Source: a virus
Direction: 5' to 3' (one strand)
Virus record (IMG/VR): IMGVR_UViG_3300035182_000466
Span: 1 to 64,000 of that record
DNA length: 64,000 nt
In this document: in pieces, positions 6,335 through 42,100 of the stretch
Numbering within the stretch: the first letter of the stretch is position 1
How the letters are laid out: the number at the start of each line of letters is the position of its first letter
Made by a program: the position numbers and the translations under genes
Notes under the pieces: model-generated
What the model saw: the letters and a program-made list of their open reading frames with translations, nothing else
Databases searched by the model: none
What the model was told of the DNA's origin: nothing

Positions 6335-7204
6335 TTATTTATTCTTAGTAATATCTTCATGCTTCTTAAGATCAGCTATTGCTTTCTCCCAAGCTTCTTT
6401 TGGGATATTTCCAGATTCTATGAACTTTATTAAACTATCAGTTAGATGAGATAAAACCTCATCATTAGATATGTCTCTTAGTTTGTTTGTATCGGAGGAA
6501 GCCAAAGAATGTAAAACATCTATGCCTAAGATTCCACCTGTTACTCCAGTACTAGCTCCCATTGCATAAGCAGTAGAACGTATTGTTGTCTTTAATACAA
6601 CATCTTTCAATACGTCAAAAGCAGTATGCTTAATCGCAGCAGCGAGTCCATGTGCAAAGCCACCTGTTATAGCAACAGAAGCTGCGGTAATAGCTGCATC
6701 TATAACAAGGGTCTTAACAGCTTTTTTCTCATGGTCAGAAATTTGTTTACCGGTTGCAATTTTCTTTATAGCTTTACAGCCATCTTTCCATTCATGAACT
6801 TGATGTTTAAGGCCATCCATTAAATCAGTCTTACTTGTTCTTAAATGTTTCGCTAAAGATTTTCTTTCATCACTATTTGGTTTATCTTGCTTATTCTTAA
6901 AGAAATCTTGATAGTTTTTACTTAGCTTAGAAATTGGTTCCTTAAATACTGAAAACATGCTAGGTAACTTTTGTTGTTTATCTTTAGTATCTTTATCTTT
7001 ATCTTTATCTTTATCTTTATTATTAGATGAGTCTTTAGGTTTAGCTACTCTACCACTATATTTTTGTTTCGCAAATTTACTATTAGGATGTTTATCTATA
7101 TAATCATCTTGCTGATCTTTGGTCATATTATAGAACCAGTCATCATTAGATAATGTTATCCTTTTCCTGTGAATAGGTTTTATGTACACAGTTAAAGTTC
7201 TCAT
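6335..7204 (-). CDS. WW/HPNSK-domain protein with Gly/Ala-rich hydrophobic core
   Basis: 289 residues. It carries the same N-terminal module as its neighbour (SNDDWFYNMTKDQQDDYIDK then HPNSKFAKQ, about 19-47). A low-complexity DKDKDKDKD stretch encoded by a hexanucleotide repeat comes next. Residues about 165-235 are Gly/Ala-rich and hydrophobic (AAITAASVAITGGFAHGLAA, AYAMGASTGVTGGILGIDVL) and could insert into a membrane. A protein that is both head-targeted and membrane-active would fit an ejected channel component, by analogy with internal virion proteins of other phages; this is inference. The start codon overlaps the upstream gene's stop by four bases. Confidence 0.65.
   Translation of the reverse strand: MRTLTVYIKPIHRKRITLSNDDWFYNMTKDQQDDYIDKHPNSKFAKQKYSGRVAKPKDSSNNKDKDKDKDKDTKDKQQKLPSMFSVFKEPISKLSKNYQDFFKNKQDKPNSDERKSLAKHLRTSKTDLMDGLKHQVHEWKDGCKAIKKIATGKQISDHEKKAVKTLVIDAAITAASVAITGGFAHGLAAAIKHTAFDVLKDVVLKTTIRSTAYAMGASTGVTGGILGIDVLHSLASSDTNKLRDISNDEVLSHLTDSLIKFIESGNIPKEAWEKAIADLKKHEDITKNK
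6991..7020 (+). repeat. Hexanucleotide CTTTAT repeat, five units
   Basis: Five perfect copies of CTTTAT inside the 6335-7204 gene, coding on the minus strand for alternating Asp-Lys. The unit length keeps the frame, so slippage would only change the length of a charged linker between the N-terminal module and the rest of the protein. Confidence 0.9.
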
Positions 7205-8361: not shown

Positions 8362-9228
8362 TTAGCAAAAAGCATGTTTCTTTAAACGATCAATAAGCAT
8401 ATTTGCATATTGTGGGTTATATTGGAACCAACGCTTGTAATAGCTTATAATAGCGTTAATATCAATTGCAGAAGAAGAGGTTTCAACCATTTCATCTTCT
8501 TCTGGAAGTTTAACCTTATCTTCATCAATAGTAGCTGTATCTTGAATGTCAAAAGCATCAATTACTTCTGGATCATCTTCACCTTCAGCAATTACCATTA
8601 ACTTTTGATTCTCAGTGTCTGTAGCAATAACAAAACCACAGCAAATTTCACCTTTAGTTAAATAGCTAATGAAGTCACCAGCATTTGCTAAAATAGTATT
8701 AAATCCACTTGACTTTCTTTGTCTAACATTTGAAGATGAGCATTCTTTCAAGAAGTTGTTAAGTTCTTCAGAAGTCTCAATATCTGATTTCTTATATAGG
8801 AAGTCACCAGTCTTATGCCAAATGCAGTCTTGATCGTCCATGAACATATTTGAAGCAACAGCCTTCATCTTAGTACCTTCTTCGGAAGAAGCTTCAATAA
8901 TTTCTACATTAGGTACAACGAATCCCTGTAGCTCAAAACGTACATTATTTACATCGGAACTGGAAGACTCAACAAGTTTAAAAGATCTAGCTACAGCTCT
9001 TAATTTACCTTTAAATTGAGCGTTAATAGCTTTAAAAACATCTTGTTTAGAAGTGTTCTCAGAAGCTACCACAGCTACCTTTACTTTGCCTTTATCACCG
9101 CAAGACTCAAAATCAAGTACGGATACAGAAAGGCGATCCATTGTGCTTGCTAATTCTGCAATTATACTTCTTCCGATTTCTTTCATTCTAGTTCTCCTTT
9201 GTCCTTGTGTTTGTAATCTCCGTGTCAT
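8362..9228 (-). CDS. Acidic structural-type protein of unknown function
   Basis: 288 residues, not recognised. The N-terminus is basic (MTRRLQTQGQRRTRM) and the rest increasingly acidic, with EDDPEVIDAFD and LPEEDEMVE near residues 215-250. A last helical stretch is YYKRWFQYNPQYANMLIDRL. Two starts are possible. The ATG at 9228 has AGGAG nine bases upstream. An internal ATG at 9186 has AAAGGAG seven bases upstream and gives MKEIGRSIIAELA, more like the leader of neighbours. A basic head with an acidic tail is seen in prohead core or scaffold proteins, but that is only suggestive. It is flanked by a promoter motif (9270) and a terminator (8237), so it may be a single-gene transcription unit and perhaps highly expressed. 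Confidence 0.65.
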   Translation of the reverse strand: MTRRLQTQGQRRTRMKEIGRSIIAELASTMDRLSVSVLDFESCGDKGKVKVAVVASENTSKQDVFKAINAQFKGKLRAVARSFKLVESSSSDVNNVRFELQGFVVPNVEIIEASSEEGTKMKAVASNMFMDDQDCIWHKTGDFLYKKSDIETSEELNNFLKECSSSNVRQRKSSGFNTILANAGDFISYLTKGEICCGFVIATDTENQKLMVIAEGEDDPEVIDAFDIQDTATIDEDKVKLPEEDEMVETSSSAIDINAIISYYKRWFQYNPQYANMLIDRLKKHAFC

Positions 9229-22546: not shown

Positions 22547-23221
22547 ATGCTCATATTGTCAGATGATCCAGCAACACGGAATTATGGAAGATCCTTGATT
22601 GAAGTAGATGATAATATAAAAAATGATAAGTTGCGCTTTAAAATAAAGAAAGCGTGGCTAGTAAAGAGTACTATACTTAATACAGATGTCAAAGGTGACA
22701 TCTCAAAGATTTTAGCTAAGTTTTCAAAAAATGCAAGAAAAACATATAGAAAATATGGATTTAATTATTATGCGGCTGAGAGATTCATGCCTAGAGGTGG
22801 GGCTGGAACTGTTCAAGGCTGTGAAGTCATAGCTATGATGCTATGTCTGAATGTAAGAGCATTTAAAACCGCTGAAAGTAGGCTTTTACCTGCGGTTGTA
22901 TGGAAAACACAGATAAAAAGGTATTATGACTTAAAAGATTTATATAAACAGATAAAACCATGTCCTGATCACTTATTAGATGCAACTTTAATAGGATTAT
23001 ACACGGTATATTCACGGTTAAAAATAAAGCCATTTTCGACTTTAGATAAGAAGGATATAAAGTACATAATAACTAGGCTAAAGTCAATAGGTACAAGGAT
23101 AAAGGTAAAAGAAGATGAAAGTAAAAGACTTGAAAGGGAAGCTAGAAAAGAAGAAAAGAAAAAGACTTCTACTCCTAGAACAGTTAAGAACAAGAAAAAT
23201 AGAATCAAGCGAAGGTCTTGA
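22547..23221 (+). CDS. RuvC-like Holliday junction resolvase
   Basis: 224 residues. The start MLILSDDPATRNYGRSLIEV matches the first catalytic strand of RuvC-type RNase H-fold nucleases (D-P-A-x-x-N-x-G). AERFMPRGGAGTVQGCEVIA supplies the catalytic Glu and the following helix. PCPDHLLDATLIGLY supplies the final Asp pair. These enzymes cut four-way junctions; in phages they resolve recombination and branched DNA before packaging. The C-terminal 45 residues are highly charged (KRLEREARKEEKKK, KNKKNRIKRRS). The gene starts the rightward transcript after the divergent promoter gap, and its last 107 bases overlap the next gene in another frame. Confidence 0.75.
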   Translation: MLILSDDPATRNYGRSLIEVDDNIKNDKLRFKIKKAWLVKSTILNTDVKGDISKILAKFSKNARKTYRKYGFNYYAAERFMPRGGAGTVQGCEVIAMMLCLNVRAFKTAESRLLPAVVWKTQIKRYYDLKDLYKQIKPCPDHLLDATLIGLYTVYSRLKIKPFSTLDKKDIKYIITRLKSIGTRIKVKEDESKRLEREARKEEKKKTSTPRTVKNKKNRIKRRS

Positions 23222-23810
23222 TAAGTTAAAGACCTTAGAAAGTGAAATACTCAGTTTAATCAAGAAAATAGAGGAAAAACCATTCGATGAATACGAAGTT
23301 ACAGATAAATCTATATCAGAAGAACGTGAGATATTACTTCAGGATTTTATGGAAAGTGTAGAAGCTAAAATTATGGTAATACGTCAATTATATGGTGTAG
23401 ATGAACCAGAGGCTTCAAAAAGAGAACTTACGGAACTGTTAGGCTTAATCAATGAGAACATAAAAATTCAAGGAGATGAGATTAATAGATTATCTAAAGT
23501 ACACAAAGATTATAATGATCATAAAGATATATCTGTTGGTAAATCGTTATTAAAATCTACATCTTCATCTACATCAAAAAAGATATATGTAAAAAGAAGA
23601 AGTAAGGAAAAATCTGAAATAGATAAATGGAATGATAAACTAGATAAACTAATATTATTAGAAAGTAAAAAAGAAAAAAGAGCGTTAGAACAAAAAGAAA
23701 AAATGGAAGCAAAGAGAATTTTTCGTAGGAAAAAGGAAAATTTTCAAAAAATATCAGGTAGTTATGTTAAGAAAAAAAATAATAAAAAATCCATAGAAAT
23801 GCCGTTTTGA
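23115..23810 (+). CDS. Charged coiled-coil protein overlapping the resolvase gene
   Basis: 231 residues, nearly all Lys/Glu-rich helix with coiled-coil character (KIESSEGLDKLKTLESEILS, then INENIKIQGDEINRLSKVH). The ATG at 23115 has AAGG upstream and makes a 107-base overlap with the resolvase. A later ATG at 23349 would avoid the overlap but lose 78 residues, including good coiled coil. The base composition suits Lys codons in both frames, so the overlap itself is weak evidence. A frame slip producing a resolvase/coiled-coil fusion is possible but unproven. No family recognised. Confidence 0.55.
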   Translation: MKVKDLKGKLEKKKRKRLLLLEQLRTRKIESSEGLDKLKTLESEILSLIKKIEEKPFDEYEVTDKSISEEREILLQDFMESVEAKIMVIRQLYGVDEPEASKRELTELLGLINENIKIQGDEINRLSKVHKDYNDHKDISVGKSLLKSTSSSTSKKIYVKRRSKEKSEIDKWNDKLDKLILLESKKEKRALEQKEKMEAKRIFRRKKENFQKISGSYVKKKNNKKSIEMPF

Positions 23811-23820
23811 CAAGAAAATC

Positions 23821-23840
23821 TTTGTAATTTAAATATACAT
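23821..23840 (+). promoter_or_regulatory. Promoter-like motif TTTGTAATTTAAATATACAT
   Basis: Copy of the TAATTTA motif just after the coiled-coil gene and about 90 bases before the first clear fold of the large non-coding region. Because no gene follows for 1.9 kb, this is the natural promoter for a long non-coding RNA. Confidence 0.5.
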
Positions 23841-23914
23841 AAATGTAAATATATATGTGTGGTTATAATTTTTATAGTACAAACAATAATCCTATTGTTT
23901 TTAGTATAAAGATT

Positions 23915-25210
23915 ATAACCCGGCACTGCGTTTCCACAAAGTGTACTTACACGGGAAACAACCATCACAAGAGATGGCGTCACCAGTGCACGTCGAGCCG
24001 ATAAAATGGTGGGCTGCGTTATTTGATTCAACAGGTGTGATTCTACCTGGAATAACGTAACGGGGAATCGAATCAAAAGATGAAGTCATAGAGTTGCTCC
24101 TGTTAAGACCATAGTCTCTTGCTGAAGATGAAGGCCATAGCAATGAATAGACCGTGAGGTCTTCCGAATAGATGGTTACTATTCGGCTATCACGATACAT
24201 TGTTCTTGAGCTCACAGGATGGGCCTCGACATGATATGGCGCAAGATGTAACCACTATGCTCTAATGCTGATAGTCCATGATAAGGATATGAAGGTTGGT
24301 AATCGAGGTTACTAAACAGGCAGAATTGTAATCATGGATATCGTACTACATGGCATGTATAACAGGATTGATGTAAGGTCGCATGTACCTATTATGGATA
24401 ACTATACTAACTTTGGCACTAGTTATATCTAGGACATGGACAAGATAAGTTTATATATTTCGAGAGAGTATATAGACAAAGTTATAGTCAGAACTACCAA
24501 AGTAGAGGGAGATACTCGCCACTAGGTAAACAGGATTTCTCGTCATATAAGACAATCAATCATTGCAATGACAAATAGAAATCTAAGCGTTTTAAGTGGG
24601 AACTGATAGGAATAGTATATCAGCAGGCTCCTGAAAATGGCCTATAACACCTACATCAGATATAATGACCTCTGCCTGTGGAGAGCTTACAGGTTCTGGA
24701 ATATGAAAGCAGAGTGACATCTGTGAAAGCGGACCAGACCGCAAGTCTACGTGAATGTTATTATCAAAGATCGCCGTTATATACGTTATGCCTGACAACT
24801 TAATGTATATAAATGTTGATATTCTTCTAGTCAAAGAGTATTAAAGGATCTGAGGTAATGTTAATCAGCGGACGTAGCCAACGTTTTGTTAAACGTTGAA
24901 CCTTTAAGAAGAGTCTCTTAAAGGCCGTAGTCAGGGATGGTAGCCCTGCCAATAATTTATACCATTTCCAGAAAGAAAGACCACCCGTCCTAGACCTAGG
25001 GAATTATCAATATTATCGTATGCAACTCCGATTTGATGCCTCGGGAGAGGTATCGGGTATTTGAAGGAGCGTTTTTATGCGAGTTCAAGTACTTGGCTGT
25101 AACGCTAGACCTGGAGGCCATAAGTTGATAATTCGAGGTAAAAACTCGATAAATTCCCTCAACCGAGGGGATTGTTCCGACCGGCTCTATCGGTATTATA
25201 ATCCCATAGG
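23915..25210 (+). ncRNA. Giant structured non-coding RNA candidate (about 1.3 kb core)
   Basis: No reading frame here resembles a gene, and the base mix is visibly richer in G and C than the neighbours. Perfect or near-perfect helices are dense. GCACTG (23923) pairs with CAGTGC (23984) around the two hairpins GTTTCC/GGAAAC and CCATC/GATGG, a clean three-way junction. AGACC-GTGA-GGTCT (24149-24162) has a GNRA loop and sits beside CCGAATAG/CTATTCGG (24164-24186), both inside ATAGC/GCTAT. Others are ATAACTA/TAGTTAT (24398-24426), CAACGTTT/AAACGTTG (24879-24898) and CCTTTAAGA/TCTTAAAGG (24901-24924). CCTC-GGGA-GAGG lies inside CCGAT/ATCGG (25028-25056). The loop of CAGGG/CCCTG (ATGGTA, 24937) can pair with TACCAT (24960), a pseudoknot. 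Giant phage RNAs such as GOLLD and ROOL are the obvious comparison. Confidence 0.75.
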
Positions 25211-25593
25211 CTTTCAAAACTTCCATAAAACTCCAAAATTCAAAAAAAGATTAGATAGCGTTGCGAAGCAACGCAAAGCTAAACGAAGTTTAGATTTAAT
25301 TAAAACGTACACAACATTAGGTAAGATACAATAGATGTTGGTTTATATCGTATCGGCTTTATATAGTATCGGCTTTAGATCTTTTCAGGTTTTAAGCACC
25401 TCCTCAGCTTATCCGTACCGGCTAATCTCATCCAATCTTTACCAAACCCAAAGATCCTACCAAAACGAAGTAATTCCTATCTATGTTATTCTATATCTGA
25501 CCTCAATAGTTTTAAAATTCTTATTCTTGTTGTCTAAAGCCAACAAGGGCTTGAGCTTACGCTCCAGCATCTGCTCTTTAAGAGCATTAAAGT
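25211..25593 (+). other. 3' part of the non-coding region with simple hairpins and a direct repeat
   Basis: This stretch holds no convincing gene. Two adjacent hairpins with GAA loops occur: GCGTTGC/GCAACGC (25258-25274) and CTAAAC/GTTTAG (25279-25293). A short direct repeat TATCGGCTTTA occurs at 25351 and 25367. Further on are TTGTTG/CAACAA, GAGC-TTAC-GCTC and TGCTCT-TTA-AGAGCA, the last at about 25572-25586. It probably forms the tail of the large transcript. An open frame here (25335-25682) has no ribosome site and runs through these hairpins. Confidence 0.55.
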
Positions 25594-25665
25594 CAAAACC
25601 TTGCACTCGTTGGCGCAGCGCAGCGCAGCGCAGCTCGGCGCCACTTCAAGAGTTTTGCATTTTTT
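25594..25665 (+). terminator. Strong compound terminator of the non-coding transcript
   Basis: CAAAAC-CTTG pairs with CAAG-AG-TTTTG around an inner TGGCGC/GCGCCA stem, followed directly by six T residues (25660-25665). This is the only hairpin in the plus-strand half with a clear U-tract, and it separates the non-coding RNA from the fibre operon. Confidence 0.75.
25613..25634 (+). repeat. GCGCA tandem repeat, four units
   Basis: Four perfect GCGCA units plus GC form the apical part of the terminator stem. It is a small GC island in an otherwise AT-rich genome, and the self-complementary unit lets it fold in several registers. Confidence 0.9.
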
Positions 25666-25686
25666 ATACGTCATCTAGATAACGAA

Positions 25687-25705
25687 TTATATAATTTATA
25701 ATATA
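25687..25705 (+). promoter_or_regulatory. Promoter-like motif TTATATAATTTATAATATA
   Basis: Motif copy immediately after the terminator and about 40 bases before the first fibre-block gene (25743). It is well placed to drive the rightward structural operon. Confidence 0.5.
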
Positions 25706-25742
25706 ATAATGTTATTGTTTATAATGTAATGGAGGTAAATAT

Positions 25743-25994
25743 ATGGCAATAGTTCAGCCCGTTAAACTTGTATATGATGAACATGGAGAAGTTATAGCTA
25801 TCTCTGAAATGGTTCCTGGTGATATGATTCAAAAATCATACTTAACTCAAGGTATGGACGTAGACGGAGGATCTATGACTGATAACTTTAGATCCCTTGA
25901 TGAAAATGTGGATGGTGGAGTATTTTCAGATGCATATGCGTCAGATGACGTAGTCTTTGATTCAGGGCCATTAAATAATGGACTTCAGCAATAA
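25743..25994 (+). CDS. Small acidic virion-type protein
   Basis: 83 residues with a strong ribosome site (GGAGG). The second half has DGGSMTD and NVDGGVFSDAYASDD, versions of the D-G-G-x-F tail motif found at the C-termini of several fibre proteins here. It is very acidic and Gly/Ser-rich, with no hydrophobic segment. It opens the fibre operon and may be a small structural or assembly protein; no closer family is recognised. Confidence 0.6.
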   Translation: MAIVQPVKLVYDEHGEVIAISEMVPGDMIQKSYLTQGMDVDGGSMTDNFRSLDENVDGGVFSDAYASDDVVFDSGPLNNGLQQ

Positions 25995-26024: not shown

Positions 26025-26621
26025 TTGAGTAATAAGATACAGATTCGTCGTGGTACAGATGCAGAAAGAATGCGGACTATCTTGGCAAATGGGGAACCGG
26101 CCTGGACTACAGATACAAATAAACTGTATATAGGTGACGGTGTTACTTTGGGCGGAAGGCTAGTAAACGATGGGAATATTCCTTATGGTAGAAATGCCTA
26201 TAGTGCTCGGTTTAATTCACAGGTTAATGTAGCATCAGTGGTGGACGCCTTGGACTTTATCTTTGACTTTGTAGACAACATGGCAGTATCTTATTTCGCT
26301 GGCGAATCATTATCAAATGAACCTATTGTAAATGATATTGATTTCGCTAAGTCTTTATCTATGTCAGCTTTACCATCAGGACAGAAAACTGTTGATGTAA
26401 TTCACTTTAGTAATTCAACTTATAGAGTATTCATGTATCCTATGGCCTTTGGTCCTATCCTAGATATACAGGATCCAGGATTTAATTTTGTCTCAATCCG
26501 TAATGCGTATGAACCAATTCCTAGACAAGTTACTTATCAGGGAACTGTATTTTATGTTTATTTTACTCAAGATCCAGCATTAAGTTTAAGTGGTAAAACT
26601 ATTAGGTACGTATTAGCCTAA
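26025..26621 (+). CDS. Tail-fibre-type protein with common anchor domain
   Basis: 198 residues, starting at a TTG (26025) with GGAGG six bases upstream; no ATG is better placed. Residues 1-45 (KIQIRRGTDAERM, then LANGEPAWTTDTNKLYIGDG) form the anchor domain shared by seven proteins of this block. This domain is well known at the N-terminus of phage tail fibres and receptor-binding proteins. The rest is a beta-rich domain ending SLSGKTIRYVLA. It is the smallest anchor protein and may be an adaptor or short fibre. Confidence 0.75.
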   Translation: MSNKIQIRRGTDAERMRTILANGEPAWTTDTNKLYIGDGVTLGGRLVNDGNIPYGRNAYSARFNSQVNVASVVDALDFIFDFVDNMAVSYFAGESLSNEPIVNDIDFAKSLSMSALPSGQKTVDVIHFSNSTYRVFMYPMAFGPILDIQDPGFNFVSIRNAYEPIPRQVTYQGTVFYVYFTQDPALSLSGKTIRYVLA

Positions 26622-26647: not shown

Positions 26648-29600
26648 ATGCTAGGAAATCCTATTTCTAGTCAGCTTTATGTAGACTTGCTGCACAAAAG
26701 TCTCGACTCTCGATTAAGCGTAGATACAATAGCGCAACGAGACGCAATTGATGCAGCGTATCGCTACAAAGGAATGGTTGTTTATGTTAAGGAAGTTGAT
26801 AAGCACTATGAATTTAGAATCATAGGATCTGAAACAACTTCTGCGTATGCTTCAAACGCTAACTGGTTTGAAGTATCTTTCCATTTACACGAAAATAAAA
26901 ACGCCATTGATTTTATTAATGTAGATGGAAATGGTAATCCTACATGGAACAATTCTGCATGGCCAGGATCTAATAGTGGAATTCCTGGGCCACAAGGTCC
27001 ACAAGGTTTTATAGGAATGACTGGACCACAAGGCGCTACTGGATCACAAGGTCCAGCTGGCGTTAATGGTGTTAATGGTTCAATTGGACCTCAAGGTCCA
27101 CAAGGTGCTCAAGGGCCACAGGGCCAAAAAGGTGATGCAGGTGCTGATTTAGTTTTTTCTGGAGCTTGGGATGCAACATACACCTATAACGTTAATAGCT
27201 TAGTAACGTATCAAGGTAGTTCTTATGTTACCATTAAACCTGCTACTGGTATAGTTCCAACAGATTCAGTATATTGGACTAAAATGACAGAAGCTGGTAC
27301 TGATGGAGCTCAAGGTCCACAAGGTTCTCGAGGTCCACAAGGAGAAACTGGATATCAAGGACCACAAGGTTATACTGGTGCAGATTCTACAGTAGCAGGT
27401 CCACAGGGACCTCAAGGTCCGCAAGGGAATCAAGGGCTTATGGGACCTCAAGGTTTAACCGGAGCTGATTCAAATGTTCCAGGACCTCAAGGCCAAATGG
27501 GTAATCAAGGTCCACAAGGTCCACAAGGTAATCAGGGTATTCAGGGTACACAAGGTAATCAGGGTACTCAGGGTCTTAAAGGTGACAAAGGAGATAAAGG
27601 AGATAAAGGAGATACTGGAGCTAACTCCACAGTACCTGGTCCACAAGGCTTAACTGGACCACAAGGAACTCAAGGTCCACAAGGTGTAGCTGGACCACAA
27701 GGATACCAAGGAGCTCTTGGATTAACAGGTGCTACTGGTCCACAAGGATCACAAGGTAATCAAGGAACACAAGGTCCACAGGGTAATCAAGGACAACAAG
27801 GTCAACAAGGTCCACAAGGATCACAAGGTACTACTGGAGAAACTGGTGATCAAGGACCACAAGGTCCACAAGGTGATACTGGTCCACAAGGCTATACCGG
27901 GTCACAGGGGCCACAAGGTCCAAAAGGCGATACCGGATTACGAGGTTATCAAGGTGCTCAAGGCTTACAAGGTTCAGTAGGACCTCAAGGTGCACGTGGT
28001 TATCAAGGTCCTGTTGGTAGTATTGGTATGCAAGGCCCACAAGGTTACACTGGTGTTACTGGTCCAATAGGACCACAAGGACCACAAGGTGTTGGTGTTG
28101 ATGGTTCAGTAGGTCCACAAGGGCCACAAGGATCTGCCGGACGAATCGGTCCACAAGGACCACAAGGATATCAAGGTGTACAAGGTACACAAGGCCATCA
28201 AGGATATCAAGGTGAACCATCTACAGTCCAAGGTCCACAAGGAACACAAGGGTATCAAGGATACCAAGGACCACAAGGATATCAAGGTGTACAAGGTGCT
28301 CAATCATCTGTTCAGGGTCCACAAGGTACACAAGGTCCACAAGGTACACAGGGTGTTACTGGTAGCACTGGAACACAAGGTGTTCAAGGTCCACAAGGTA
28401 CACAAGGATATCAAGGCTATACTGGTATAGCCGGTCCTGTCGGCTCGCAAGGTCCACAAGGTCCACAAGGTCCACAAGGTCCACAAGGACAACAAGGTCC
28501 ACAAGGTCCACAAGGTCCACAAGGACAACAAGGTCCACAAGGCTCACAAGGATCACAAGGACAACAAGGGTATCAAGGATACCAAGGATACCAAGGCACA
28601 CAAGGAACTTCAGGTAAAGGATTTACTTTATCTAAAGTTTATACCTCTGTAGCGGAACTTAACTCTGATAGTTCACCTACTGGTATAAACGTAGGAGAGT
28701 TTGCTATTATTAATACCGGAAACATAGATGATGTAGATAACGGAAAGTTATATCTATGGAATGGTTCTAGTTATCAATACCTAGTAGATTTATCAGGAGT
28801 TCAAGGAATACAAGGACCTCAGGGCTTAACTGGTTTAACTGGAGCACAAGGTGAAGCTTCTACAGTTCCTGGGCCTCAAGGATTAACCGGTCCACAAGGA
28901 CCACAAGGTACACAAGGTTCACAAGGAAACCCATCTACTGTTCCTGGACCACAAGGTCCACAAGGATTAACCGGTCCACAAGGACCACAAGGTGATAAGG
29001 GTGATAAAGGTGATACTGGCTCTCAAGGACCTCAAGGTCTAATCGGCCCTCAAGGTCCACAAGGTTTAACTGGAGCTGACTCAACTGTTCAAGGTCCACA
29101 AGGACCACAAGGTTATCTTGGATTAACCGGTCCACAGGGACAACAGGGACCACAGGGAGCACCATCTACTGTTCAAGGTCCACAAGGACCACAAGGTGAT
29201 CTTGGATTAACCGGTCCACAGGGACCACAGGGAGCACCATCTACTGTTCAAGGTCCACAAGGACCACAAGGTGATCTTGGATTAACCGGTCCACAGGGAC
29301 CACAGGGAGCACCATCTACTGTTCAAGGTCCACAAGGTGATGTAGGTCCACAGGGACCACAGGGAGCACAGGGAGCACCATCTACTGTTCAAGGACCACA
29401 AGGTAATCTTGGATTAACCGGTCCACAGGGACCTCAAGGTTCACAAGGAAACCCATCTACTGTTCCTGGACCACAAGGTCCACAAGGATTAACCGGTCCA
29501 CAAGGACCACAGGGACCACAAGGTGCTCAAGGTGCTCAAGGTCCACAAGGAGACCCATCTACTGTTCCTGGACCACAAGGTAAAGATGGAGTTGATGGCG

Positions 29601-30331
29601 TTCAAGGTCCACAAGGTAATCAAGGCTCACAAGGCATGACAGGGGCACAAGGTATTCAAGGTTCACCATTCTTAATTGCTAAGACATATCCTTCAGTTGA
29701 TGCTTTAACTGCGGATACAGCACCTACTAACATTAATCAGTATAACTATGCAGTTATAGATACTGGAAATGTTAATGATCCTGACAATGGTAAACTCTAT
29801 ATCTGGTCAGGGACTAAGTATATCTATATCACAGATATGTCAGGTGCACAAGGTGCACAAGGTATGTCAGGTGCACAAGGTAATCAAGGATTAACTGGAC
29901 CACAAGGTCCACAAGGATCACAAGGTATACCTGGAGATTCAGGCCCTGTGGTTATACGTTATGAGTTTGGTACTGGTACAGGTAAGTCTTATGTTACTGC
30001 AACTGGTACTGGTGTAACCTTAACAAAGTCTACTAACAGTGCAGAAATTTCTGCACCTGATGGTGTAGAAGTATTGAGTTGTAGTATACACTTTGATTCC
30101 TCTGAAATTACTTCAAGTTCTGTAACCATTAACTATGGACAAAATAAAGGTATGGGAGATAACACAACTTACGATGTACTGTATTGTCCACAGTTCCAAG
30201 TATTCCAAGATATTTCTGGTAACAGAGCATTTAAGTCAGCTGTTGCAGGCAATTTAAACACAGCATCAGGAACTTTAACCTTGACAAACTTAACATCAGG
30301 ACAAGCAATTTGGATCAATATGTCATTCTAA
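26648..30331 (+). CDS. Collagen-like tail fibre protein
   Basis: 1227 residues. An N-terminal beta domain (about 110 residues) is followed by hundreds of Gly-x-y triplets dominated by GPQ, a collagen-type triple helix expected to form a long trimeric shaft. The shaft is interrupted by one CBM5/12-like repeat (about 175-225) and by two copies of the module [20 protein letters not shown]...[17 protein letters not shown] (about 660 and 1010). The C-terminal 130 residues ([20 protein letters not shown] to [10 protein letters not shown]) are a tip domain, repeated in the gene at 52611. Many exact DNA repeats make it prone to length change. It is probably a host-attachment fibre. Confidence 0.9.
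29156..29340 (+). repeat. 75-bp tandem repeat in the collagen-like gene
   Basis: Two perfect 75-bp units (29156-29230 and 29231-29305) followed by a partial third, each encoding [17 protein letters not shown] and eight further residues. The identity at DNA level indicates recent expansion. Confidence 0.85.
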
Positions 30332-30960: not shown

Positions 30961-32994
30961 ATGATTACTTTACAGTTGAAGCGTGGTCTTAAAGCTAATC
31001 TTCCCGCATCTGCTCCCGCAGGTGCACCATTACTCACATTAGATACTAATGAATTATTTGTGGGTACTGGTTCCGGTATCAAAAAAGTAGTAGATACTTT
31101 AGTTTCAGCTACAGCACCGTCAAATCCTATTAGTAATCAAATTTGGTTAGATACTACCACTAATCAGATTAAGCGTTATGATGGTTCAGTGTGGGTACCA
31201 GCTTCTGGTTTAGGAGCAACTTGGGGTAATCTTATCGGTAACATTGATGATCAAGCTGATCTTAAAGCAAAGTTTGATGCTTTGACCGCAGCTAATACAA
31301 CCTTAACTACAAACTTAGCTGCTGAGACCACAGCACGGATTGCAGCAGATACAAATTTACAAAATGCTATTAACGCAGAAGCCTCTACAAGAGCCGCAGC
31401 TATTGCAGCTATTACTTCCACAAGTGGTGATAGTGTAGCTGCAGAGACATCGGCTCGTCAAGCTGCTGATACTACTCTTCAAGCTAACATCAATGCAGAG
31501 ACTACTGCTCGTACTTCAGCAGACACTACCCTACAGGCTAATATTAATGCAGAGGCTACTGCAAGAGCAGCTGCTGATGCAGTTCTTCAGGCTGCTTTAG
31601 ACGCAGAGACTACCGCACGTATTGCTGCTGATGCTGCTTCACAAACCTCAGTAACAAATGAGACCTCAGCTAGGGTTGCTGCTGACGCTGCATTACAAGC
31701 AGCAATTAATGCAGAGGCTACTGCAAGAGCAGCAGCTGATGCTGCCTTACAAAGCTCTAAAGCAGAATTAGCTGGTAGCCAAACGCAAGTATTTGCAGTA
31801 GCTACTCCAACACAAGACTATCATGCTGCAACAAAGAAATATGTTGATGGAATGTCACAAAGCTTAGATATTAAGCGTTCAGTAAAAATTGCTAGTACTG
31901 CTAATGTTAGTTTATCAGCTCCAGGTGCAAGTATTGACGGTTATACCTTAGTAGCTGGTGACAGAATTTTGTTACGCAAGCAAACTAATTTAACTGAAAA
32001 TGGTATCTATGTATTTAATACTGCTTCTACTCCTTTAGTCCGTTCAACTGATGCGGATAACGCTGATGGCGAAGCTGATTTCACTTGTGGATTATTCACC
32101 TTCGTTGAGAGTGGTACTTATGCTGGTGTTGGCTTCACTTGTACTACTCCAGACAGTACACAAATTGGTGGTGTTGCAGCTATTAACTTAGGTAAAGATG
32201 CAATTAATTTCACACAATTCTCTGCAGCTGGATCTTACAGCGCAGGTACTGGACTTGAAATCAATGGTCAAGAAATCTCCATAGCTGCTACTGGTGTAGC
32301 TACTGGAACCTATACTCAAGTAACTGTGAACAAGCAAGGTCAAGTAACTGCTGCTAGTAGCCCAACTACATTAGCTGCTTATGGTATTACTGATGCAGCC
32401 TCTCAGTCTGCTTTAGATGCAGAGACCTCAGCTCGTACTGCTGCTGATACTGCAATCCAAACTACCGTGACTAATGAAGTAACGGCTAGAGCAGCTGCCG
32501 ATGCAACATTACAAGCTGCAATTAATGCAGAGGCTACTGCTCGTACTTCAGCAGACACTACCCTACAGGCTAATATTAATGCAGAAGCATCTACACGTGC
32601 TGCTGCTGATGCAACTTTAACTACTAACTTAGCTGCAGAGACATCAGCTCGTCAAGCTGCTGATACCACTCTTCAAGCTAATATTGATGCTGAAGTTACA
32701 GCACGTATTGCAGCCATTTCAGCAATCACCAATACAACTGGCTCAAACCTGACTGCAGAGACATCAGCTCGTCAAGCTGCTGATACCACTCTTCAAGCTA
32801 ATATTGATGCTGAAGTTACAGCACGTCAAGCTGCTGATGCTGCCTTACAAAGTTCTAAGGCAGCATTAGCTGGTAGTCCTACTCAAGTTTTTTCTGTTGC
32901 TAATCCAGTTTCAGGAACAAATGCACTTAACTTAGATTTTGCAGATGCACGTTATGTCAACGTTGATGAAGTTGTAGACTTAGGTACATTCTAA
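30961..32994 (+). CDS. Coiled-coil tail fibre with anchor domain
   Basis: 677 residues. The anchor domain is at the N-terminus (ITLQLKRGLKANLP, LLTLDTNELFVGTGSG). A first stretch of 18-residue repeats of the type AETxARxAADTTLQANIN (about 110-270) is typical of trimeric coiled-coil shafts. A globular insert (DYHAATKKYVDGMSQSLDIK to DAINFTQFSAAG) is a module common in myovirus fibres and also present in the 49210 gene. A second repeat stretch follows and the end is VDEVVDLGTF. Exact DNA duplications lie within the repeats. Confidence 0.85.
   Translation: MITLQLKRGLKANLPASAPAGAPLLTLDTNELFVGTGSGIKKVVDTLVSATAPSNPISNQIWLDTTTNQIKRYDGSVWVPASGLGATWGNLIGNIDDQADLKAKFDALTAANTTLTTNLAAETTARIAADTNLQNAINAEASTRAAAIAAITSTSGDSVAAETSARQAADTTLQANINAETTARTSADTTLQANINAEATARAAADAVLQAALDAETTARIAADAASQTSVTNETSARVAADAALQAAINAEATARAAADAALQSSKAELAGSQTQVFAVATPTQDYHAATKKYVDGMSQSLDIKRSVKIASTANVSLSAPGASIDGYTLVAGDRILLRKQTNLTENGIYVFNTASTPLVRSTDADNADGEADFTCGLFTFVESGTYAGVGFTCTTPDSTQIGGVAAINLGKDAINFTQFSAAGSYSAGTGLEINGQEISIAATGVATGTYTQVTVNKQGQVTAASSPTTLAAYGITDAASQSALDAETSARTAADTAIQTTVTNEVTARAAADATLQAAINAEATARTSADTTLQANINAEASTRAAADATLTTNLAAETSARQAADTTLQANIDAEVTARIAAISAITNTTGSNLTAETSARQAADTTLQANIDAEVTARQAADAALQSSKAALAGSPTQVFSVANPVSGTNALNLDFADARYVNVDEVVDLGTF
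32633..32826 (+). repeat. 74-bp exact direct repeat in the coiled-coil fibre gene
   Basis: Identical 74-base copies at 32633-32706 and 32753-32826, 120 bases apart. Recombination between them would remove or add 40 residues in frame. Confidence 0.85.
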
Positions 32995-33131: not shown

Positions 33132-36100
33132 ATGAAGCTTTTGATAAAACGAGGGCTAGATACAACTCGCCAATTAATAACGTTTGATGAAGGTGAGTTA
33201 ATTCTGGCTACCGACACTGGGCAATTATTTATAGGTGATGGTAAAACCGCAGGTGGTATTAAAATCAGTCCAAGTCTAAAAGGCTTATGGTCTGAAAAAA
33301 CGTTTGCAGTTAACGATATTGTAAGTAACAATGGAAGTTCATACTTCTGTAAAGTTGCACATACTGGTACTTCATTAACTGAACCTGGACTAGGAGCAAA
33401 TTGGGATCAATATTGGCAATTAATGTCAGAAAAAGGTGAAATTGGAATACAGGTTAAAGGTGATTGGGATGCAACTCAATCCTACAGTGTTGGTGATTTT
33501 GTATCTTACTTAGGATCTGCATGGGTCTGCAAAACTCCATGTGTAAATGTTGTTCCAGAAAATGGCACATATTGGATTTTAGCTTCAGAAAAAGGTGATC
33601 GTGGATTATATCCTGAAGGCATTTGGAGCAACGCTACCAATTATAAAAAAGATAGCATTGTAGTTTATAATGGTGAAGTATTCAGAAGTCTGGTAGACAA
33701 TAATAAAAATTCAGTACCTGATAAAAATGCCCAAAATTGGGAGAAGTTTGTAAGTAAAGGTTATACACATAAAGGCGAATACCAAGTAGCAACATCTTAT
33801 ACTAATGATGATATTGTTTTTTATAGTGGTAGCACTTGGAGATGTATTTCTGAAACTACAGAGGCTCCAGATACAACTAGTTCCAGTTGGGAACTAGTCG
33901 CAGGAGGTATAGTAGTAAGAGGTAAATGGAGTAACGCTTCTAATTATCAGAAAAATGATATAGTAGAACATGCAGGATCAACTTGGAGATCAAACTCTGT
34001 AAACGTAACTAGTGAGCCATCTTTGAATAATACTGACTGGGAATTAGTTTCCGGCGGTATAGTAGCTAAAGGGGAATGGCAAGATTCCATAGAGTATGAC
34101 ATAAATGATATTGTAGCTTATTCAAGCTCCACTTGGAGAGCAAAAGTAAAAACTACAAGTAAACCATCTAAGAGTAATGTAGACTGGGAGCTATTATCAG
34201 GTGGTTTAAGTATTAAAGGTGATTGGGATAAAAACATTAGTTATAAACTTAACGATTTAGTTTACCATAAAGGTTCATCTTACTTAAATAATCAGGATGT
34301 AAACTTAGGTAATGAACCATCAATTACAGACTCGACTTGGAGTGTTTTAGGAAAGCGTGGTCTATACCATAGAGGAGCATGGTCTAATGCTACACAGTAT
34401 TATGCAGGTGATGCAGTTTCTTATCATGGTGAATCTTGGTATGCCTTAAGTGATAGTTTAAATATTACTCCTGCAGAAGGACTGACATGGACTTTATTAA
34501 GTTCTAAAGGTACTATTTTTAAAGGTCAATGGGTATTAACTTCTGAGTATAAAGTAGATGATTTAGTTACTCATAATGGTAGCATGTGGATTTCATTAGT
34601 TGATTCTACTAATAGTGAACCTAGTTTAACAAATACTGATTGGTTACTTGTAGCATCTAAAGGTGATAAGGGTATACAACCAATTGGTCAATGGTCTAAT
34701 TCAACTAATTATGTTGTTGGTGATTTTGTAAACTACCTTGGTTCTGGTTATATATCTAAAGGAAATACACCTTCTGGTACACTACCTACAGAAGAATCAT
34801 TTTGGGCAAAAGTTGTAGATAAAGGTGACAAAGGAGTTTATCCTCAAGGTCAATGGTCTAAATCAAAGACCTACAAAATGGATGATATAGTTGTTTATAA
34901 CGGTCAAGTATTTAGAAGTCTAATTGACAATAATCTAAATATTATTCCTGTTGGTGATAGCACTTGGGAACTATTCTTATACAAAGGTTATACTAATAAA
35001 GGTGTATGGAATAATAGCTCTGTTTATCAGGTAGATGATTTAGTTGTATATGCTAGTTCTTTATGGAGAGCGATAACTTCAGGCTCTAATAACAATCCAG
35101 CTATAACTAAAGATACTAACTGGGAACTAGTCGCAGGAGGTATTACACTTCGTAACGCTTGGGATTCTAATACTGCGTATAAGATAAATGATATAGTAAC
35201 ATACTCAAATTCTACATGGCTATCTAAAACTGAAAACACAAATTCTGAACCAACCACTTCAAGTAGTGATTGGGAAGTGATGACTTCAGGTGTATCGTTT
35301 GCAGGTACGTGGGCTTCTACTAGTAAGTTTAATAAGAATGATATAGTTCTTTATAAAGGTAATTCTTATATAAGCCTTATTTCAAATAACTTGAATAATG
35401 AGCCTTCAGATTTATCATCATACTGGAGTTTAGTAGCTAAGAAAGGTATTGTTGCACGTGGTGCATGGTCTAATATTACACAATACTATGCAGGAGATGT
35501 TGTCCATTATTTAGGTAACTCATGGTATGCTTTAAATGATAGTTTAAATGTTATTCCCGTAGAAGGAATTACTTGGACTTTATTAGCCTCTAAAGGTATG
35601 TCAGTTAAAGGTCAATGGCTATCAGGTACTTCCTATCTTAAAGATGATGTGGTCTTTGAAGATGGCAGCTCATGGTTAGCATTAGCAGATAATACTAATT
35701 CAAGACCAGTGACTGGTAACTCAAACTGGACATTGATTACACAAAAGGGTGATAAAGGTATTCAAGTAAAAGGTGATTGGAATGAAACAGTCACTTATGA
35801 GTTAGGCGATTTAGTTTACTATAATGGAAGTGGCTACGTGGCTAAAGGATCTGTAGCTGCAAATGTTGTTCCTACTGATTCAGAGAATTGGTCAAAGATA
35901 GTATCTAAAGGTGATAAAGGTGACCCAGGTAAAAACTTTACAATAGCTAAAGTTTATGCTTCTTCTTTAGATCTACACTCGGATGTAACACCTAGTAATA
36001 TTGAACCTGGAGAGTTTGCAATAATAAATACTGGTAACGTGGAAGCAGATGAAGATGCACGTTTATACTTATGGAATGGTTCTAGTTATCAGTACATAAC

Positions 36101-39100
36101 AGATATGTCAGGACTACAAGGTATTCAAGGCCCACGTGGTATGAACCATAAGGGTGATTATAATGTAAGTTATGAGTATGCTAAAGATGATGCTGTAATT
36201 TATGGTGGATCTTATTATGTATCTTTGCAAGATTCAAACCTTTCAAATTTACCAATAACTCACCCTGCTTACTGGGCCATGGTTGCATCAAAAGGTGATT
36301 ACGGGATAAAGATGAGAGGAGAATGGAATCTAAGTGATATTTACACCGTTCATGATTCTGTATCTTTTAACGGATCACATTGGATATGTATTCAAGATCA
36401 TAGTGGAATAGCTCCAGAAGAAAATGCTTACTGGACATTGTTAGTTCATAAAGGTGATGCTGGGGTACCTGGTCCTCAAGGTGCTCCAGGATTTAATTCA
36501 CTAGAAGTTCAATATGCTGGTTCACAGATTGGAAATTCCGTATCTAAAGTTGACTTTGTGGGTGGTGGTTCAAATATAAGCTACGATGCTGCAAATGCTA
36601 AAATAGTTATTGACATAGAAGGTAATACCGCAGGATCTATGTCTTGGAGTAATGGTGCGGACTTTGTACAAGGAACTAAAACAGAAAAGATAAAGATAGT
36701 TGGTGATAGCATAACTTTAGGATATGAAAATGGAGAGTATATTGAAGACTGCTATAGTTTAGTAAATGCAAATCTATCAAAAACAACTATTGTATCAGTA
36801 GGAGGCGAATTAGTATCAGGGAAAAATGGATCAAATTATTTGACGTCTTCTACATTCACTTCAGTTAATGTTCTTTCTGGAAAGTTAAATACTTTAGTTG
36901 AGTCTTTTAGTTATGTAACTACTTCTATACCAGATAGATGTGAAGCCAAACTACAATTCTCACAAGACGGAATATCTTGGGTATCTGCAAGTGGTGTAGT
37001 AAATGAGTACACAGAACTTTTAGTTGGATCTAATACATTGGATCTAACAGCATTAAATTACGTTACACCTAATTTTTATTATAAACTGACTTACTTATCA
37101 GATGGAACTGCAACACCTTCTGTTTCTGATATACGGATATCCTATAGTCCTAAAGTTTATGCTTCAACTAATCAGACATGGACTTCTAATGTCATCACAA
37201 GTAGAGACTATCGTTCAATTAAACTGACTGCCTTTAAGGCAGCTTGGAGTGTAACTGCACAAAATGTAAAACCAAGATTTAGAATAGCTGCATCTGATGT
37301 TGAAGATTTTAGTTCTGGTGTAACGTATTTTCCTTCAGCTTATTTATATTATCAAAATGGTTCTACTGCACATATAGAAAATGGAGTATGGTTAGATCTT
37401 TCAGCGGTAATTACTTCTAGTAAAAAGTATTGGAAGATAATAGCTGTATTAAACTCCGGAACAGATACTAATAATGCTCCAGTAATATCACAGTTAGACG
37501 TATCGTATTTAATTGATCCTGTTGTACCAGTAATGGGTAAAACCTTTACGTCCAAAGGTACTTGGAATATAAATACACCTTATGTAGAAAATGATTTAGT
37601 CGAATACAATGGGTCACTGTGGTATTCTGAAACTAAGAACTTAGGATCAACCCCAAGTGTTATAAGTTCTGATTGGGGACTGTTTGCTTCAAAGGGAGAT
37701 AAAGGAGATAAAGGTGATCGTGGTGACATTGGTATTCAAGGACCTCAAGGTATTGCTGGATTAATAGCTAAAGGTGAATGGTCATCAGGAACAACATATG
37801 GACCATTTGATGTAGTGCAATATGCTAACGGGATATGGAAGTCTAAGCAGACAAACAACTCTAACAACATTCCTTCACAATCGCCAGATAATTGGGAGCT
37901 TTTAGTACAAGGAATGAATGTTAAGTCTGATTGGTCTAGTGCAACATCTTATGCTAAAAATGACTTAGTTACTTATGCTAACGCAGTTTATTGTTCCTTG
38001 ATAGACCTAAATGTTAATAACGTTCCTGTTGATGGTAGTAAATGGAAACTTTTAACTCAAGGTCTTTCTGCTAAAGGTTCTTGGTCTTCTTCAACTAATT
38101 ATTATTATAATGATTTAGTTACGTACAAAGGTACTACTTACAGAAGCATTACTAATAATAACTTAAATAATACTCCACCAATAAATGCCTCCGATTCTAA
38201 TTGGGATATTTTATCAAAACGTGGATTAGCTCTTCGTGGTGTTTGGAGCTCTTTAACACAGTATTATGAAGGTGATGTTGTATCATACAATGGACAATCT
38301 TTTGCTTCTATACAAAATTCTTTAAACGTTATACCTGTTGAAGAGGAATATTGGACTCTAATCGCTAGTTCAGGATTAGCTGACAGAGGTGCTTGGGCTT
38401 CTGGATTAACTTATGAGCCTAATGATCTTGTTTTCTATGATGGTTCTACTTGGAGATGTCTAGCTCAAAATATTAACGTAGAACCTGTACAAGGTACAGA
38501 ATGGACTATATTTGCACGTCAGGGTCAAATAGGACCTCAAGGTAATATTGGACCAATTGGACCTAAAGGAGACCCTGGAACTAACATAGTACCTATGGGT
38601 ATTTGGAATGAATGGACTACCTATCCAATTGATGCATGTGTAACATATGAAGGAAGTGCTTGGAGAAGCTTAGGTACAACTACTGGTGATACTCCACAAT
38701 TAGGATCAAGTGCATGGGAAATCTTCTTAGAAGGATCAAGTGCACCAGAAAGATTATCTTCTACTCAAAATATTTGGGATAAAAGTTTAGCGTTTAATAA
38801 TCAAAATGCTATCTTTACTGATGGACTCCAGAAGCCAAGTGTTGATAATGTTATTAGATTAGCTCAAACTGGTGGAACTTTCTATGATGCCTATAGTAAC
38901 TTTAATAATATTAACGCCGCACAAAGTTCTAACTATGCGTATGATGTATTTAAAGCTGGAATAGGTATCAAAAAAGAAATAGATTATGGTACTGGAGCTG
39001 ATGGTAACATAACTATTAGTGCTAATAGCAACATAAATGTCATGATGACTAATGGACGTACTCAACCAGATGGTATCTCTTTTAACGTTACATCTTTGAC

Positions 39101-42100
39101 CTCCAATACAGCCGTCCTTAGCTCTGTACCTAACGTAGGGGCTCTTAATGTAAATGATGAAGTAATTCTTATCAACTTAATGGGTACCCCAACTAATTAC
39201 TCTAACGTAGGTAACTATGAGTTCCTTAGAGTTAAGTCTGTAAGTGGGAGTATAATTACATTTCAGACAAATAAGACAAAATTTTATGGTCAAAACTCTT
39301 TAGAAGATACAAATATTGGAATTACTCCAGGAACAAATCAAATAGTGGTTATTCAAAGAGTTCCTAACTATAATAATGTTACAATTAATAGTGGAGTAAG
39401 CTTAACCTGTAATAACTGGAATGAATTATTAGGAGGAATCATTGCTTTTAGAGTATCTGGTTCCTTATCAAACTTTGGGGTCATCACGGCAGAAGGTAAA
39501 GGGTATCTAGGAGGTGCTTTCCCAGGTAATTCTACAGGAGAAGGTCCTGGATACAAAAACTTTGGCTCAACTGGCATAACTTACAGTGCTATTGGTGGTG
39601 GTTCAGATACTAATTCATATGTTAATTTTTCATATGTTAATTCTAGAGGTGGCGGCGGCGGATATAGAACTCAAGGTATATGTTGTGCCAATTTTAATAT
39701 TAACCCAACTTCCATAGATCCTTATGGAACAACTTATGGTGATGATTATCTGATTAAGCTGTATTTTGGCTCTGGCGGCGGCATCGCTTATAATGGTTCA
39801 GCCACAGTTAATGGAGGTAATGGTGGAGGAATAGTATTTATAGGAGCAAACTCTATATCACTACTTGGATCAATACTTAGTCCAGGTACTTCAGGAAGTA
39901 CAACTTTAACAGGATACTGTGACCCCGGTGCAGGTGCAGGTGGCTCAATTCTTATTAAGACTATAAGTTTAATTACAGGTACTAATATCCTAAATACTAA
40001 AGGTGCTGCTCAACTCGATTCTGCAAACATTTGGAATGACAGTATTTTTGGTGGTTCTGGAATAGCTGCTGTTTATTATAAAAATAAATCTGGAGCAATT
40101 ACTTCTTCTGGTACTACTAAAGAGTATCCTATTTTAGAATATTCTACATCTTCAGTAGTTAGCTCAATAAATTTACTAGCCTCACCTACAACAGTAACTA
40201 ACATTAAGAAGTATAACTATACTATGTCACAATTACCAAATGGAACAACAGCTAAGATTCAATTTAGTAAGGATGGTACTTCTTGGTACAATTCTTCTGG
40301 TATTCAGAATCAATCAAATCTTATGAACACAGGCTCACGCTCTATTGATCTTACAAACTTAGGGTGGACAGGAAAGAACCTGTATACTAAGATTACTTTA
40401 ACCTCAGATGGAACTGGAACACCTATAATTCAAAATTATACTATTGAATTTGATCCAATTATCTATACTTCATCTGAGCAATCTTGGACATCAAATACTA
40501 TCAATGCTCCATTGAATCAAGAACATAGACTTAAGTATATGTCTATTATTTGGAACTATGCTGAGAATGATTTTGCAGTTAATCCTAAGTTCCAATTATT
40601 AGCATCAAATACTGGAGCATTTAGTGGAGAAGAAACTATTTTCCCTGCCGGTATTGGAACGTATTTCCAAGAAGGTGGTACCTACGATTTCCATCCAGGA
40701 GAAGAAGTAGATTTAACGCAACTAACACAAACCGGATTTAAATATTATCGTGTAAAAGCCTACCTGGTTGCTGGTGGTGATTATTCAGATACTCCTGAAA
40801 TCACTTCAATAGAAATTGGCTTAATGGGCCAACCTACTTTAAATTTAGTAAATAGAGGAAGCTGGAATAATGCAGTTAATTATAGTGTAGGAGATATTGT
40901 TACTGACAATGGTATTCTTTGGAGATGCTTAGTCAATAATACTAATAGTCAACCAACAGCTACTAATTCAAACTGGCAGTTGTATTTAACAAAAGGCCTT
41001 AGCTATAAAGGAACATACTCTGCTGCGGTTAGTTATATTCTAGATGATATTGTTGAGTATCATGGACAACTTTACAAAGCTCTAAAAACTACAACAGGTA
41101 ATACACCTGTTGAAGGATCTAATTGGACTATTTTATTAGATTCATTAAAATATGTAGGTGCTTGGAACTCTAGTACTTTGTATGCAGGTTCTGATGTTGT
41201 TACTTATCATGGACAACTCTGGAAAGCATTAGCTACATCAACAAATGTTATTCCAGTTGAAGGCGCAAATTGGACATTATTAAATAACGGTCTAAATATT
41301 ACTGGAACTTGGAACTCTGCTACTGCTTATGCTGCTAATGATATTGTTGTCTATGCAAACTCTATTTGGAAGTGTAATTCAAATAATACAAACAGTATAC
41401 CATCAGTTGACAACGTTTCTAATTGGACACTGTATGCCGGAGGATTGGCTGCTAAGAGTGAGTGGTCTTCTGTTGCTAATTATCAGATTAATGACTTAGT
41501 TACTTACTCAGGAACAACTTGGCGTTGCACTCAAGCAAATACAAATCAAACTCCTTCTGTTGGAGCTTACTGGGAAATCTTTGCGGCAAAAGGTGAGAAA
41601 GGCGATGCTTCTACTATACCTGGACCGCAAGGCATTCAAGGCATACCTGGGTTATCAGGTTCTGGATTAACCTTTAAAGGTCCTTGGGACTTTTCTGTAG
41701 AGTACTCACAGGATGATTGTGTAGAGTACCTAGGTTCTGCTTGGAGAAGTGTAGCTAATTCAAATAGTAATAACTATCCAGATTCTAGCTCCTCTTGGGA
41801 ATTATTTGTACAGGGTGCTAACAGCCCAACTCGGGTGAGTACAAATACCAAAGTTTGGAATGGAAGTTTAGCTTTCAATGCTAAAGGTACTATTTTTAGT
41901 ACTGGAATTGAAAGTCCTTCTATTGATGGAAAGTTAAAGCTTGAATATGAGTCTGGATTATTTAAAGAAAAATTTGAAAATTACTTTAAATTAGATTCAG
42001 CTATTACTTCTAACATTATTATTCGTAGTGGTCGTGTAGAAATTAAGCCAAATATTGATTATGGTACTGGATTAGATGGAAATATTATAATAAGTTCCAA

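Follow-up and report, generated by a model that had tools for sequence, protein, structure and literature searches.

A probable EGFOA-like structured RNA core, with a possible kilobase-scale 5′ extension, in a gene-free stretch of a jumbo phage

What does a phage encode in a long stretch of its genome that has no recognizable gene? The DNA analyzed here (the window, 64,000 nt of a 170-kb viral record) contains such an interval between two + strand ORFs, and it had been predicted to encode a giant structured non-coding RNA of a new class. No other gene-free stretch in the window is nearly as long; at a 90-codon threshold it extends over 1080 nt, compared with 332 nt for the next longest. The prediction that it contains no believable gene is borne out. 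The longest open frame has 115 codons, near the expectation from shuffled sequences (87 ± 20, with 32 of 300 shuffles reaching 115), and the ORFs tested within the stretch gave no Pfam match above the curated cut-off. There is no tRNA gene in the window. The GC content of the stretch is 0.40–0.44. It is thus higher than that of the window as a whole (0.344) and of the genes on its left-hand side (0.31), but not higher than that of the genes on its right (0.44), so that the elevated GC content originally noted holds on one side only. The proposed transcription signals fare less well. A sigma-70 scan gave no site at the start of the stretch, where a promoter-like motif had been placed, and the first + strand site lies inside it at 24368. 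A scan for consensus terminators in the stretch found none; what remains of the strong terminator is a stable hairpin followed by a T run, which is a possible end of the transcript. The coordinates of all the features discussed here are collected in Table 1.

Table 1. Features of the gene-free stretch, in window coordinates.
Feature	Position	Strand	Remarks
Gene-free interval	23811..25742	+	Between ORF 23115-23810 and ORF 25743-25994
AT-rich hairpin, 28 bp, 89% complementary	23861..23920	+	Directly after upstream gene; folding z -5.7
Possible 5′ RNA domain	23921..24860	+	Without detectable homologue; folding not above genes
Predicted stem around two hairpins (three-way junction)	24759..24860	+	
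Hairpin CCUUUAAGA/UCUUAAAGG	24901..24924	+	L076 counterpart UCUUAGG/CCUAAGA
Hairpin CAGGG-AUGGUAG-CCCUG	24932..24948	+	Loop 24937-24942 forms PKB with 24960-24965
PKB 3′ strand UACCAU	24960..24965	+	Directly 5′ of P1
P1 5′ strand UCCAG	24967..24971	+	Pairs with 25111-25115 (CUGGA) inside P4 loop
Conserved CCGUCCUAG	24985..24993	+	CUAG 24990-24993 is the PK2 5′ strand
P5 5′ strand GAAUUAUCAAU	25001..25011	+	Pairs with 25124-25134; outer stem of Rfam EGFOA model
GNRA-capped hairpin GAUGCCUC-GGGA-GAGGUAUC	25035..25054	+	In insert peculiar to the window phage
P4 hairpin UGGCU-GUAACGCUAGACCUGGA-GGCCA	25094..25120	+	17-nt loop holds the PK2 (25105-25108) and P1 (25111-25115) partners
P5 3′ strand GUUGAUAAUUC	25124..25134	+	Partner of 25001-25011
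3′ hairpins AAUUCCCUC/GAGGGGAUU and CCGA-CCGGCUCUA-UCGG	25152..25193	+	
Two C-GAA-G triloop palindromes	25258..25293	+	L076 and L012 have similar ones after the core
Terminator-like hairpin, -24 kcal/mol	25593..25666	+	Hairpin 25593-25656, then T run CATTTTTTAT

The whole stretch gave no Rfam match at curated cut-offs. In a lenient Rfam search of 23700-25760, RF02955 (EGFOA), which Rfam annotates as 'Gene; sRNA', matches 24962-25132 with 29.4 bits and E = 0.007. This lies below the curated gathering cut-off of 37.7 bits, and in whole-genome mode the score is 22.1 bits. The elements behind the match are CCGUCCUAG and GUAACGCUAGACCUGG, together with an outer stem of 8 bp and one hairpin, and the EGFOA sequence blocks CCGUnCnnG and GUAAnGCnnGACCUG are present in the window core. 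We found no mention of the EGFOA RNA family in the literature searched.

A second site lies in a contig of 294,944 bases from another jumbo phage (L076). The genes around the RNA are arranged as in the window, with an upstream resolvase, the RNA region, and then homologues of ORFs 25743, 26025 and 26648; the product of ORF 26025 and its homologue share 53% identity. The gene-free interval in the same place is ~2.3 kb long. The L076 core matches RF02955 with 30.1 bits (E = 0.0057 at the site, and E = 1.7e-4 in its 295-kb genome), again below the 37.7 cut-off. Taken together, two sub-threshold hits at one syntenic position in diverged phages are far stronger evidence than either by itself. Window positions 24860-25140 align with L076 with z = 6.4 against shuffles. 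Searches with the neighboring proteins found no syntenic relative beyond L076, and eight named phages that are related or matching have no EGFOA (AD1, PaBG, Lu11, Y3, HRDY3, NCTB, Yen9-02 and Afa-NA1). Phage PaBG has a 1.5-kb unannotated gap near the syntenic region (7787-9263 of L059), with no EGFOA and no other Rfam match.

The genes on the right-hand side have features of their own. The 1227-residue product of the gene at 26648-30331 of the window has long collagen-like repeats (GPQGPQ), and a homologous gene follows the RNA in L076. The gene at 33132-46157 encodes a tail-fiber-like protein of 4341 residues, which contains 15 family 5/12 carbohydrate-binding modules. An N-terminal Major tropism determinant domain is found in all three of the structural proteins encoded at 26025-26621, 30961-32994 and 33132-46157, with two of the three matches below the Pfam cut-off.

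Further members of the family were sought with patterns made from the EGFOA blocks, which yielded above-cut-off members in IMG/VR contigs and in Ornithinibacillus halophilus. The Rfam model found others in genomes from the order and phylum of that bacterium, and a looser pattern added further viral members, bringing the final set to 21 including the window and L076. The window and L076 share the signature CCGUnCnnG...GUAAnGCnnGACCUGG with the 19 other members, which come from phages and Bacillota genomes. When IMG/VR loop-motif matches were put to a joint test of CCGT, PK2 and P4, L076 was the only one of 39 to pass. Searching phage and plasmid collections by blastn with the extended RNAs of two members gave no match. 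In Ornithinibacillus halophilus there are two copies of EGFOA, which face opposite ways and are separated by 2.3 kb (6436-6587 on the - strand and 8739-8886 on the + strand of L045), in an island beside an rlmH-like gene; by eye there is a RuvC-like ORF between the copies.

The proposed fold is centered on the hairpin P4, the 17-nt loop of which (GUAAnGCnnGACCUGGa) would pair back twice, with CCAG to form P1 and with the CnnG of CCGUnCnnG to form PK2. The loop of an upstream hairpin would make a third tertiary helix (PKB) beside P1, and the long stem P5 would close the domain. Across the 21 members the 17-nt P4 loop GUAAnGCnnGACCUGGn carries CnnG, complementary to CCGUnCnnG in PK2, and CUGGn, complementary to the upstream nCCAG in P1. 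P5 occurs with other sequences in most members. Three helices covary strongly in the 21-member alignment, and among them P1 and PK2 are pseudoknots that are unpaired in the Rfam model. In this alignment (A2) 96.6% of the pair cells are formed, compared with 72.0% when shuffled, and there are 72 compensatory cells compared with 23.7 in the shuffles, none of 500 of which reaches 72. Ten of the 14 pairs have changes on both sides, and the covariation is 0.672 against 0.172 (0 of 500). If the partners are slid by one column, pairing falls to 48% or less. In unrelated phages and bacteria the two sides of the core's base pairs have changed together.

PK2 is paired in all 21 members (100%), a pooled count that is inflated because some viral members were selected partly by PK2 complementarity. 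The clean test is provided by the nine Bacillota members, which score above the cut-off with the Rfam model without PK2. All nine are PK2-complementary, with six different sequences, although one of them (L045a) originally came to light in a pattern search in which the 3′ side was set to CTAG. The pseudoknots offer predictions that can be tested by compensatory mutation.

PKB had been proposed from the window alone as a candidate pseudoknot, and it is upheld. The pairing of 24937-24942 with 24960-24965 has an empirical p of 0.003 in the window, and the arrangement recurs with other bases in three further members, L076 (p = 0.007), L065 (p = 0.003) and L073 (0 of 300). The sequences are AUGGUA/UACCAU in the window, UGGCACUC/GGGUGCUG in L076 and UGGCGUC/GGCGCUA in L065. 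In the remaining members pairing at the PKB position is weak or not significant. On the 3′ side of the core, a GGCUC motif within 25152-25193 resembles by eye the GGYGGCUCC downstream of other members. The two palindromes that follow are the only GAA-triloop hairpins in the window with stems of 6 bp or more. As single-stranded DNA, hairpins of the form GCGAAGC have very high stability, and they resemble the promoters of the N4 virion RNA polymerase.

How closely is the window core related to EGFOA? The two share the invariant blocks CCAG, CCGUCCUAG and GUAAnGCUAGACCUGG, the hairpin P4 with its 17-nt loop (UGGCU/GGCCA, with five of five pairs) and the outer stem P5, which is 11 bp in the window. 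They differ in that the P2 hairpin, which follows CCGUCCUAG in the Rfam model, is deleted in both jumbo phages (by eye it is also not evident in L012). A further difference, which is a feature of the window, is a 105-nt insert between the blocks, and the insert holds a GNRA-capped stem, of which two had been predicted in the stretch. In addition, 1.1 kb of gene-free sequence precedes the core in the window. For its part, the 108-position Rfam model, according to its structure line, lacks P1 and PK2, as well as PKB and the upstream hairpin that takes part in it. When 17 members were used to train a model and the jumbo pair was left out, it found L076 at E = 2e-4. The same model gave the window 14.6 bits and E = 0.11 in 433 kb, barely above the loop-motif decoys; the score is low because the 105-nt insert is costly. 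The case for the window is the conjunction of the signature, the covarying helices and the synteny, rather than any single score. Since the score is below the RF02955 cut-off and P2 is missing, we call this a divergent EGFOA-like RNA, and do not file it as an EGFOA member. We consider it probable that ~24930-25134, perhaps extending to ~25200, is the core of a + strand structured non-coding RNA that is homologous to EGFOA. Because the core is related to an existing family, the suggestion of a new class is not supported.

The original prediction of a structured non-coding RNA therefore stands for the 3′ part, which has homologues and strong covariation, but not for the 5′ kilobase, which has no comparable homologue. 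Local folding z over 23850-25210 averages -0.70, compared with -0.76 and -1.03 in the flanking genes. Dense perfect helices had been claimed for the entire stretch, but this average is gene-like, and the local exceptions are confined to 23800-23960 and 24840-25240. For the 5′ part (960 nt) the folding z is -2.4, and five gene segments lie between -1.2 and -5.5. A blastn search of 50,697 phage records found no homologue of the 5′ kilobase, and the same was true of the 5′ part of L076. Pairwise alignment of 23921-24860 with L076 gave z = 0.3 against shuffles, with no detectable similarity. The 5′ part was also subjected to structure-profile alignment, by a method that missed even the proven core.

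It is a serious possibility, a little short of an even chance, that the functional RNA is limited to the 300-450-nt 3′ part, and that the kilobase before it is unrelated DNA such as a leader, a spacer or decayed genes. The dissimilar 5′ parts of the window and L076 and the gene-like folding are in accord with this, as is the compact nature of the conserved element elsewhere, which spans ~280-300 nt in L065 and L073 and ~480 nt in L012. On the other hand, both jumbo phages keep gene-free DNA before the core (1.0 kb in the window and ~1.4 kb in L076), whereas no other gap in the window exceeds 332 nt, and GC content is raised over the whole stretch (0.40). Moreover, helices in like order are predicted just upstream of the core in both phages. 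The element at 24759-24860 has a like-ordered counterpart in L076 (1714-1807 of the reverse complement) without sequence similarity, a likeness that is suggestive only. The gene-free interval of L076 also opens with a long hairpin (16 bp, at 507-549 of the reverse complement), as does that of the window.

The larger RNA is a more tentative proposal. Here ~23900-25200 would be one RNA of ~1.3 kb (~1.6 kb in L076), in which a multi-pseudoknot EGFOA-like 3′ core is joined to a fast-evolving 5′ domain, and which would serve as a scaffold or RNA-only assembly in infection, parallel but unrelated to GOLLD and ROOL. The long 5′ sequence would be in the same transcript as the core, and the constant 3′ core and variable 5′ region would then have a GOLLD-like layout. 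A kilobase 5′ extension of the RNA is possible, and the description of the RNA as giant is plausible but unproven, since the 5′ kilobase is without a comparable homologue and folds no more strongly than genes.

The surroundings of the core bear on how it might act. Neighboring genes differ among members, comprising terminase and portal, DNA polymerase III and endolysin, endolysin, a head protein, or ParA. In Bacillota the neighborhoods are by eye mobile regions with recombinase-, restriction-modification- and insertion-sequence-like genes. In L012 a perfect extended -10 sigma-70 promoter (TTGACA-17-TATAAT) lies ~230 nt before the core, so that the RNA there probably has its own transcript. As there is no constant neighboring gene, and given the promoter in L012, the EGFOA-like RNA probably acts in trans. 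We infer that the core is made as RNA. It would form a rigid scaffold to which a partner, or further copies of the core, would bind in the late program of the phage, and by analogy with GOLLD and ROOL the RNA might fulfil this role alone or together with protein.

Action in cis is improbable. The core might be a 5′ leader of the downstream gene at 25743, resembling a riboswitch or attenuator, and core and downstream gene are indeed on the same strand in the window, L076, L012 and L002. However, the downstream genes differ completely between members, and in the window and L076 ~600 nt separate the core from that gene. There is still less reason to think that the RNA is the partner of the adjacent RuvC-like nuclease, as omega RNA is to IscB or IsrB (HEARO). 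Both the window and L076 have a gene for a Holliday junction resolvase upstream, and the RuvC-like ORF seen by eye between the two Ornithinibacillus copies could be read in the same way. But the resolvase and its divergent neighbor form a pair that is conserved in jumbo phages without EGFOA, a search of six other EGFOA records with phrog_18317 (the Ornithinibacillus genome included) gave no match, and the other members adjoin the terminase, DNA polymerase, endolysin, head protein and ParA genes listed above. We reject a nuclease partner because the same synteny is common to jumbo phages without the RNA. Least probable of all is an undetected protein-coding gene on either strand, or the remnant of one, for although the 115-codon frame slightly exceeds the shuffled mean and several members have short antisense ORFs across the core, none of the ORFs tested matches a family above the curated cut-off, substitutions track base pairing, and frame is lost between the conserved blocks, the spacings of which (36-105 nt, with all three remainders) are not a multiple of three across members and so rule out an antisense protein in the core.

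The profile of the stretch had been likened to that of the giant phage RNAs, with no sequence that could be matched to them. The Rfam models for GOLLD, ROOL, OLE and HEARO gave no match to 23700-25760 at gathering score, nor even at E ≤ 10, and the RNA is none of these. HEARO, the omega RNA of IsrB and IscB, resembles it in having a gene for a RuvC-fold nuclease nearby, but the nuclease of the window is a syntenic jumbo-phage resolvase that is uncoupled from the RNA. GOLLD is often found near tRNA islands; unlike GOLLD, the window RNA has no tRNA gene in its vicinity across the window. GOLLD and ROOL are large phage RNAs, and GOLLD often exceeds 800 nt (PMC12286853). In common with GOLLD, the window RNA is phage-borne and would have a constant 3′ part and a less conserved 5′ part (PMC12286853), but it has no match to the GOLLD covariance model. 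ROOL is likewise phage-borne and pseudoknot-rich, with no known protein partner (PMC12286853), and differs in that its covariance model has no match in the stretch. EGFOA, present in Rfam as a 108-position RNA, would here become the core of a larger pseudoknotted RNA. The EGFOA core is found in unrelated phages, jumbo phages included, and in mobile regions of Bacillota chromosomes, and hence it can be studied in cultivable bacteria. If the 5′ extension is real, phages contain another type of large RNA beside GOLLD and ROOL, and at ~1.3 kb it would rank with the largest structured RNAs that phages are known to have.
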